A stretch of DNA of 64,000 nt from positions 1 through 64,000 of the forward strand of contig JAPWUD010000001.1 in NCBI GenBank assembly GCA_028275705.1, in the 5' to 3' direction. The notes below the pieces were generated by a model. The model was given only the letters and a program-made list of their open reading frames with translations, made no database searches and had not been told where the DNA came from. Below are positions 1 to 60,384 of this stretch, one piece after another (position 1 is the first letter of the stretch; the number at the start of each line of letters is the position of its first letter). A program made the position numbers and the translations under genes. Source of the stretch: Desulfurococcaceae archaeon. Lineage in GTDB: Archaea; Thermoproteota; Thermoprotei_A; Sulfolobales; Desulfurococcaceae.

Positions 1-214
1 AGTGGTCTCCAACTGGAAGCATTGTAGTTAGTAAACTAAATGCAGCTACACATAAGTCTCCACGCTTCGTGATAGTCTTAGCTGTGTTTAACAATTCCTC
101 CTCGCTCTCAGCAAGAATTACATAAACTTGGCTTAATTTATCCAGGGAAGCAACTAGTGCATTCACACTATACCTAGTATCCTTTCTATATTGAAATACT
201 ACTCCCACCCTCAA
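1..214 (-). CDS. Radical SAM protein, N-terminal part only (runs off the window)
   Basis: The minus strand is open from a TTG at 214 to the window edge, giving 71 residues that begin LRVGVVFQYRKDTRYSVNAL. The segment looks like the N-terminal B12-binding-like domain found before a radical SAM domain, most like the archaeal MJ_1487 family as I remember it. The CxxxCxxC motif would lie outside the window, so the enzymatic call is an inference. Only five bases separate this start from the edge of repeat copy A, so the repeat has replaced or supplies its upstream region. Confidence 0.5.
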   Translation of the reverse strand, partial: MRVGVVFQYRKDTRYSVNALVASLDKLSQVYVILAESEEELLNTAKTITKRGDLCVAAFSLLTTMLPVGDH

Positions 215-218
215 CGTG

Positions 219-626
219 CTACCGTTTCTCGGCAGATGGTAATTCATAGCCATCCATGTTTACTGTTTTTAGGGCTCCTCACCATCTGCCTCTCAACGGC
301 TTTATCTCCCCGACCACTCTACGGGAGTTGTTCACCCCTAGTCGCCTAGGGGACATCCACTCCCCTCAAGTAATCAGGGTTCACGGATTGTTCATCAACC
401 TCAAGGCTTCATCGGCTTCGAATTTCTACCACTATTACTGTATTTGAAGATGGTTTAAAAACCTATTGTAATAAATGTAAACCCAGTATACTCTTCAATA
501 GATACATTCGGAGTAGCACTAACACTAGGACTAGATAAACACGTTGCATCAGCACACCTCATAGCATTAAGAGGTCTAAGACATCAATGGAAATAAGTAT
601 TACAAATGATCATGAAAACTCAAGCC
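219..626. mobile_element. Decayed repeat element, copy A
   Basis: This stretch shares a block of about 140 nt (281-420) with 17679-17820, at roughly 93-95% identity with two one-base indels, plus shared arms and right end. It starts with an imperfect inverted repeat: 221-240 pairs with 281-299 around a loop of about 40 nt. It then has a perfect 7-bp hairpin, cccctag-tcgc-ctagggg, at 336-353. The right part keeps a TnpB-like protein tail (477-596). The indels shift the reading frame between copies, so the conserved block is probably RNA or DNA structure rather than protein. I read it as the remnant of an IS200/IS605-type element. The rest of the gene-free stretch (627-752) holds only an AT-rich upstream region for the next gene. 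Confidence 0.6.
477..596 (+). pseudogene. TnpB-like transposase C-terminal fragment
   Basis: A 39-codon open frame starts VNPVYSSIDTFGVALTLGLD, continues KHVASAHLIALRGLRHQ and ends in WK plus TAA. Archaeal TnpB/OrfB-like proteins often end with a comparable pattern: VNPxYxS, then G, then H-x-A-A with I and R residues. There is no start codon or upstream coding part, so this is a relic. Copy B keeps only the last eleven codons (HLTALKDLRHQ). The family assignment rests on pattern memory. Confidence 0.4.
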
Positions 627-17574: not shown

Positions 17575-17614
17575 GAAACCACCATTTAATTCTCACTTTA
17601 ATACGCTTAAATAA

Positions 17615-17938
17615 CTACCGTTTCTCGGTAGATGGTGGTTCATTGCCATTTATATTTTCATTGTTTTCATGGCTCCCCACCATCTGCCTCTCAACGGCTT
17701 TTATCTCCCCGACCACTCTACGGGAGTTGTTCACTCCTAGTCGCCTAGGGGATCATCCACTCCCCTCGAGTAATCGGGGTTCATGGATTGTTCATCAACC
17801 TCAAGGCCTCATCGGCTTCGGGATTCCGCAACTACTACAATATCTCAGTGTGGTTTATAAACACACCTCACAGCCCTGAAAGACCTTAGACACCAATAAA
17901 TGTAAACACCACAAGCGATTATGAAAAACGAAGCAGCC
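17615..17938. mobile_element. Decayed repeat element, copy B
   Basis: Second copy of the element at 219-626, in the same orientation. Shared parts are the hairpin arms (17617-17636 and 17679-17697), the block 17679-17820 and the right end with gattatgaaaaacgaagc. Relative to copy A it lacks about 90 nt of the TnpB-like part and keeps only HLTALKDLRHQ plus TAA (17864-17899). It fills the whole gap between the AbrB-like gene and the 3' end of glyS. No target-site duplication is evident. Confidence 0.6.
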
Positions 17939-25313: not shown

Positions 25314-25358
25314 CTGACCTCCTCCCCGCCCTTAAAAGGCGAGGCTTATAGTTGTAAA
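25314..25358 (-). repeat. Palindromic IS200/IS605-type end, copy 1
   Basis: On the minus strand it reads tttacaactataagcctcgc, then cttttaagggcggggagg, then aggtcag. It folds as CCTCGCC...GGCGGGG. A second copy is at 60341-60384. Such GC-rich hairpins mark IS200/IS605 ends and TnpB guide RNAs, but no transposase gene lies here. The stop codon of the DUF99 gene is inside the hairpin. Confidence 0.5.
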
Positions 25359-60340: not shown

Positions 60341-60384
60341 TTTACAACTGTAAGCCTCGCCTTTCAAGGCGGGGAGGAGGTCAG
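60341..60384 (+). repeat. Palindromic IS200/IS605-type end, copy 2
   Basis: tttacaactgtaagcctcgc, then ctttcaaggcggggagg, then aggtcag: the same element as 25358-25314 on the minus strand, with about five differences including one indel. The stem CCTCGCCTT/AAGGCGGGG is kept. It lies 12 nt after the S3ae stop, in the same orientation to the preceding gene as copy 1. Confidence 0.5.

Follow-up and report, generated by a model that had tools for sequence, protein, structure and literature searches.

The first 64,000 nt of contig JAPWUD010000001.1 from a Desulfurococcaceae archaeon (assembly GCA_028275705.1; hereafter the window, to which all coordinates refer) harbor two copies, A and B, of a short repeat that are almost certainly mobile elements derived from a TnpB-bearing transposon. 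Comparison with relatives indicates that their minus strand very probably codes for a structured RNA, with plus being defined as the direction of tnpB in both copies. This RNA is likely a guide RNA working with a TnpB-like protein. As overall explanation, we consider it probable that a TnpB-type guide RNA has become uncoupled from an inverted tnpB gene and that copies A and B are RNA-only satellites thereof.

BLAST searches with copy A in its own assembly (genome G000; 1.47 Mb, 42 contigs) gave nine matches and recovered copy B at an E value of 2e-76. Both copies share 86% identity across 244 nt, with the best block (301-353 in copy A, 17700-17752 in copy B) reaching 98%, which confirms the near-identical two-copy repeat recorded in a preliminary description of this DNA. 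The further landmarks noted there are all present, i.e., a long inverted repeat (222-299 in copy A, formed by CCGTT/AACGG plus GGCAGATGGT/ACCATCTGCC), a perfect 7-bp hairpin (335-352, CCCCTAG-TCGC-CTAGGGG), and a conserved right end. The extent of 219-626 given for copy A does hold the element, yet starts 3 nt early, and the copy spans 222-624; its right boundary is ambiguous, as the CC could be 625-626 instead. The ends common to the copies are CC/GTTTCTC on one side and, where complete, GAAACAG/CC on the other, the slash marking the boundary. The following element features were assigned.

222-624, plus strand: element copy A, non-autonomous, 403 bp (ends common to 30 complete elements, copy alignment)
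459-596, plus strand: tnpB-like remnant of copy A, last 45 codons and stop at 594-596 (translation, alignment with the C-terminus of intact relatives); it overlaps the TATA-like box, and the actual deletion junction lies near 465
597-624, plus strand: right (far) end of copy A, in which GAAACAG has diverged into CTCAAG (copy alignment, shared ends)
17618-17936, plus strand: element copy B, non-autonomous, 319 bp (ends, copy alignment)
17861-17899, plus strand: tnpB-like remnant of copy B, last 12 codons and stop, THLTALKDLRHQ* (translation)
17900-17936, plus strand: right (far) end of copy B, terminating in GAAGCAG (copy alignment, shared ends)

The window begins at a contig end: its positions 1-127 recur without any difference at the end of another contig of this assembly, C2, so that the two contigs overlap, and copy A lies approximately 220 bp from that end.

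Full-length relatives carry the same ends with a gene in between, represented by one locus of this genome (L008, contig C4, ~1.5 kb) and one of a related genome (L039, ~1.3 kb). Since copy A keeps 45 and copy B only 12 codons of this gene, both copies are, judged by their sequence, internal-deletion derivatives of a tnpB-bearing element, which have retained both ends together with the RNA and a TATA-like box, while tnpB is nearly all gone. They show the properties of non-autonomous insertion sequence copies (miniature inverted-repeat transposable elements, MITEs), being short and multi-copy, sharing their ends with an autonomous relative, and lacking a transposition gene. The TnpB-like tail previously noticed at this place is thus borne out on the plus strand, and the suspected IS200/IS605-related origin gains support from the TnpB-like relatives sharing the same ends. 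A Y1 transposase gene was found inside none of the elements, with one being located elsewhere in the genome.

The gene product of the full-length relatives is a TnpB-like protein of 356-370 amino acids. Its RuvC residues D216, E280, and D353 are invariant in an alignment of 15 divergent members, and cysteine pairs indicating a zinc finger between RuvC-II and RuvC-III occur in 0 of these 15, whereas the canonical TnpBs of the same genome do carry zinc-finger cysteines. Members of the set were matched by the NCBIfam models TIGR01765 putative transposase (best E value 4e-20), TnpB-related protein, Cas12f2, and RNA-guided TnpB, and a profile comparison with the canonical TnpBs of this genome reached a probability of 97.8%. 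The protein profile gave chance-level matches only when compared with the PDB by sequence. A structure was predicted with a mean pLDDT of 85.9, and the fold search with this model returned Cas12f and Cas12k as top solved matches and Fanzor2 further down; the predicted fold is Cas12f-like and has no HNH. This search was decisive and settles the predicted protein as TnpB/Cas12f-like. We therefore best read the elements as an IS200/IS605-like family of the Thermoproteota, the conserved gene of which encodes a zinc-finger-less TnpB-like RuvC nuclease. In one subfamily (L008 and L055-L057), a small AbrB-type-like frame (VPEEYVFHARVSKTSHGLLCIYIPKEL...) resides between the TATA palindrome and tnpB; its product could be an autoregulator binding this palindrome.

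Outside of the gene, on the upstream side of tnpB, lies a conserved block of ~200 nt. A covariance model (R1) built from 16 homologous regions, with the window copies left out, retrieved copy A at an E value of 1.1e-20 and copy B at 4.1e-19. It gave ten matches in the own assembly, bringing the genome total to about ten copies, detected family members in 53 of the 147 genomes of the order, and also had matches among other families of the phylum. Together with the nine BLAST matches, these numbers set the repeat well apart from chance. Where a copy has both of its ends, the end of the R1 match coincides with the element boundary. The RNA features are the following.

222-432, minus strand: predicted RNA scaffold of copy A (model match 221-385, covariation, fold); the 5' end at ~432 is inferred from the TATA box, the 3' end is the element boundary
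222-299, minus strand: terminal hairpin of copy A, P1 222-226/295-299 and P2 231-240/281-290 (read directly from the sequence; helices 5 and 6 covary)
308-379, minus strand: central domain of copy A, P3 308-319/368-379 and P4 323-328/359-364 (fold)
335-352, minus strand: 7-bp hairpin of copy A with the GNRA loop GCGA at 342-345 (GNRA in 37 of 39 relatives)
17618-17829, minus strand: predicted RNA scaffold of copy B (matched by R1 at 17617-17785, fold)

The fold thus places a terminal hairpin at the element boundary, next to a central domain in which a long outer and a shorter inner helix enclose the hairpin with the tetraloop, and the element RNA would have a length of approximately 130-210 nt. 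In two match sets comprising 65 and 69 sequences, both of which overlap partly with the R1 training set, 34 and 37 out of 39 pairs, respectively, change on both sides. None of 500 shuffles matched the observed covariation, and slid controls paired at ~36-64% versus 90%. The preliminary description had named the lack of further copies and of covariation as findings that would speak against its reading; about ten genome copies and strong covariation were found, supporting its proposals of a mobile noncoding element and of an RNA.

The copies could still be ordinary MITEs of an IS200/IS605 element that make no functional RNA, with the hairpins being recognized as single-stranded DNA by a Y1 transposase that works in trans. 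We consider this unlikely. Short multi-copy elements with common ends would fit, as would the Y1 gene of this genome and a strand-neutral terminal hairpin touching the boundary, but compensatory changes are found throughout the central domain, 80-160 nt away from the element end, and speak against such signals. The bias for G-U pairs on one strand, the GNRA loops, a described small RNA mapping to the region, and a conserved promoter-like box at the proper distance, all detailed below, argue against it as well.

Six lines of sequence evidence favor the strand opposite to tnpB as the RNA-coding one, an assignment that is well supported: fold energy, G-U pairs, GNRA loops, composition-corrected stability, Sso133, and the TATA box. 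The consensus fold energy is -24.0 on the minus compared with -9.6 on the plus strand, and stability corrected for composition favored minus in 37 of 48 regions. Within P3 and P4, the minus strand shows 120 G-U pairs versus 24 A-C mismatches. Read on minus, and only then, the tetraloop is a GNRA loop (GCGA, GCAA, GTGA, or GTAA) in 37 out of 39 sequences. Two differences between copies A and B in P3 maintain the minus-strand pairing (U-G versus C-G), while the plus strand would give A-C mismatches in copy A. In addition, the Rfam family Sso133 (RF02814, Sulfolobus sRNA133) matches the homologous region of three Sulfolobaceae loci (L063, L065, and L066), always opposite to tnpB; these loci score above the family threshold and the window copies below.

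For an evaluation of the gene arrangement independent of the RNA, 80 loci were gathered in named genomes by means of the protein and nothing else (Ignisphaera, Vulcanisaeta, Caldivirga, Aeropyrum, Pyrodictiaceae, Zestosphaera, a metagenome-assembled genome of Thermococcus, and others). The RNA was found directly upstream and on the opposite strand in 63 of the 69 loci with upstream room, and on the same strand only as tnpB in 0 of these 69, so that tnpB and the RNA are divergent. Many loci carry a palindromic TATA box between the two, e.g., CTACAGAAATACTTATAAGATTTTCTGTAG in L057. A TATA-like box beside the RNA was detected in 35 of 43 loci (8.6 expected), its start having a median distance of 23 nt to the RNA start, and ~23 nt is the usual distance between TATA box and start site in archaea. 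The window copies share this element.

452-463, no strand assigned: palindromic TATA-like box of copy A, GGTTTAAAAACC (box statistics of the relatives)
17848-17866, no strand assigned: palindromic TATA box of copy B, GTGTGGTTTATAAACACAC (direct sequence, statistics of the relatives)

The arrangement also bears on two further explanations. The structure might be a plus-strand leader or an IscB-like RNA with a 5' guide, as the guide RNA of IscB is located upstream of its nuclease gene, too. Against it, the TATA box separates the structure from tnpB, the strand tests point to minus, Sso133 is on the opposite strand, and the protein is TnpB/Cas12-like, with guides of that family being 3'. Based on the strand and promoter evidence, we ruled this explanation out as extremely improbable. 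Somewhat less remote, although still unlikely, is a trans- or cis-acting regulator of the transposon without any guide, e.g., one repressing tnpB or binding another protein. Divergent RNAs regulate transposase genes in other transposons, and part of the family has the AbrB-like small frame between RNA and tnpB. Such a regulator is difficult to reconcile with an RNA that does not overlap the tnpB message, adjoins the boundary pointing outward, accompanies a protein from a guide-RNA-dependent family, and is kept by RNA-only copies after the loss of tnpB.

The insertion sites are consistent with a guide RNA. On the tnpB side, the flanks of the 30 complete elements show CC in 29, C at the next position in 26 and at the following one in 15, and are near random thereafter; the flank on the RNA side terminates in CC in all 30. 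A clean insertion site is represented by L034 of genome G006, a site that is empty in the genome studied here (TACCCCTCTC compared with TACC-element-CCCCTCTC, where a CC leaves the junction ambiguous by 2 nt). Read along the RNA strand, the empty site has GGGG and then the flank that would serve as guide, in agreement with how an adjacent motif of TnpB should precede its guide. Three other sites did not qualify: the radical SAM gene of L003 has another frameshift, the MATE gene of L007 contains an inversion, and the flanks of copy A are too divergent for a test within the genus. In the case of L007 (G000 contig C16), the MATE transporter gene is broken by the inversion here and intact in G006, the element being located within the inverted half. 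Some copies interrupt genes and copies occupy differing locations, which together with the empty site of L034 renders the earlier idea of a domesticated RNA unnecessary.

From these data, we propose the following mechanism. The shared box would drive tnpB in one direction and the RNA in the other. As the scaffold stops at the boundary and faces outward, any 3' extension of the RNA would be host DNA; transcripts reading through the terminal hairpin past the element boundary would accordingly carry the host flank as guide at their 3' end. In the guide RNAs of TnpB and Cas12 proteins, the scaffold is 5' and the guide 3', and the motif precedes the target on its 5' side. Along the RNA strand, the order of adjacent motif, element, guide RNA, and guide would then be that of a canonical TnpB element, with tnpB itself flipped. 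The TnpB-like protein, supplied to copies A and B in trans, e.g., from the intact copy on contig C4, may cut the empty donor site at a 5'-GGG adjacent motif followed by the guide match on the RNA strand, and this cleavage would help to retain the element. Boundary and strand predict the following guides.

198-221, minus strand: predicted guide of copy A (host flank), TAGCACGTTGAGGGTGGGAGTAGT
17594-17617, minus strand: predicted guide of copy B (host flank), TAGTTATTTAAGCGTATTAAAGTG

Structure, strand, and architecture of the RNA follow from the comparison of relatives, structure and strand being well supported, and they suggest the guide function.

Several observations weigh against this reading. 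The alignments were fitted to the model, by which the pairing, yet not the count of compensatory changes, is somewhat inflated. Sso133 spans just the middle of the RNA (~73 nt) and was described from other genomes. In the P2 helix of the terminal hairpin, neither strand is favored (33 versus 33), and counting all pairs one by one, a sign test does not reach significance (17 versus 14), so that this hairpin may also act as DNA and some of the conservation may be due to recognition of the DNA by the transposase. The clean insertion site was obtained in one case only. Four genomes (G116, G123, G142, and G026) hold 8-14 RNA copies each without a tnpB-like match in the protein search; their partner protein may be more distant, a contig may be missing, or the satellites may have no helper. 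Finally, the window copies have retained the far end of tnpB together with the right end (~75 nt), leaving room for a canonical 3' guide RNA.

This last point leads to the possibility that the guide RNA resides at the canonical place on the plus strand, composed of the tnpB 3' end and the right end, with the upstream RNA having another role. The last 12-45 codons kept in the window copies and the many tnpB tails persisting in other genomes would be explained thereby. The ~45 nt after the stop, however, revealed no conserved hairpin on reading the copies by eye, which did not include a covariation test, the covarying structure sits in the upstream RNA, and the tail may simply be an end signal for the transposase. 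We regard this alternative as very unlikely and retain the divergent upstream RNA as the guide candidate. A related suggestion of the preliminary description, a minus-strand frame ending in PLRGRW as the 3' end of tnpB over its guide RNA, was abandoned: copy B reads IKAVERQ at this position, showing that the frame is not conserved. It is a coincidence. The true tnpB remnant occupies the plus strand at the far end, and the RNA lies upstream of tnpB and opposite in strand to it, the converse of the usual TnpB arrangement.

Besides this family, another hairpin motif was noticed in the window, where inverted copies at 25325-25358 and 60341-60374 consist of a CCCCGCCTTTAAAAGGCGGGG-type sequence followed by TTATAGTTGTAAA. 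The motif has about 40 matches in the genome, several of them beside canonical zinc-finger TnpB genes and several paired at a distance of ~250 nt, and it probably marks where a canonical TnpB element, as well as short copies derived from it, end. In L009 (G000 contig C34) and L045 (G047), the terminal hairpin motif adjoins a canonical-looking but unrelated hairpin, and the two genomes share the left flank of 12 nt; these loci may be a hybrid or belong to a different type of element.

Taken further, the data lead us to favor, on balance, a TnpB-like lineage extending across the Thermoproteota, in which the nuclease gene is inverted with respect to its guide RNA, both are transcribed divergently from a shared palindromic promoter, and RNA-only satellites depend on a TnpB-like protein in trans. 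The RNA would be able to spread in satellites because it is uncoupled from the tnpB message. TnpB guide RNAs are commonly viewed as products of the 3' end of this message; a widespread branch would then show the uncoupling of RNA and nuclease gene, as in CRISPR-Cas12. This would also suggest a function for the orphan Sulfolobus small RNA Sso133, account for RNA-only satellite families in archaeal genomes, and provide candidates for small heat-stable nucleases without a zinc finger.

Among the known systems, TnpB guide RNAs have been described from the 3' end of tnpB in sense direction (PMC12817955), an arrangement that differs from the opposite-strand upstream RNA in 63 of 69 loci. A TnpB guide RNA running divergently from its gene did not turn up in the literature searched, the coverage of which was partial, so that an earlier description is possible. 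The RNA-257 family of S. solfataricus originates from the distal coding end of the ISC1904 transposase gene, in sense (PMC3674436). Like the RNAs described here, its members are transposon-derived archaeal RNAs forming separate loci; their origin at the canonical 3' sense position excludes them from being the same RNA as the upstream divergent one. Sso133 matches the central domain of the Sulfolobaceae members opposite to tnpB, although it covers a part of the RNA only and its Rfam name carries no link to TnpB. With IscB, the elements share the position of the RNA at the upstream end of the nuclease gene; in contrast, the IscB RNA is encoded on the same strand, has a 5' guide, and works with an HNH protein, compared with an opposite-strand RNA, a predicted 3' guide, and a predicted Cas12f-like fold without HNH here. 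MITEs and other non-autonomous IS200/IS605 copies are likewise short with a terminal hairpin and are mobilized in trans, as presumably also holds here, whereas the copies described here preserve an entire structured RNA along with a promoter-like box. The closest system is the IS200/IS605 TnpB (OMEGA) one, with a RuvC nuclease of the TnpB family, a structured RNA whose predicted 3' end adjoins the element boundary, a probable short target motif on the other side, and ends without long inverted repeats in common. Here, in turn, tnpB is flipped and has lost its zinc finger, and the RNA lies outside the tnpB message, upstream of and divergent from the gene, with which it would share the promoter region.
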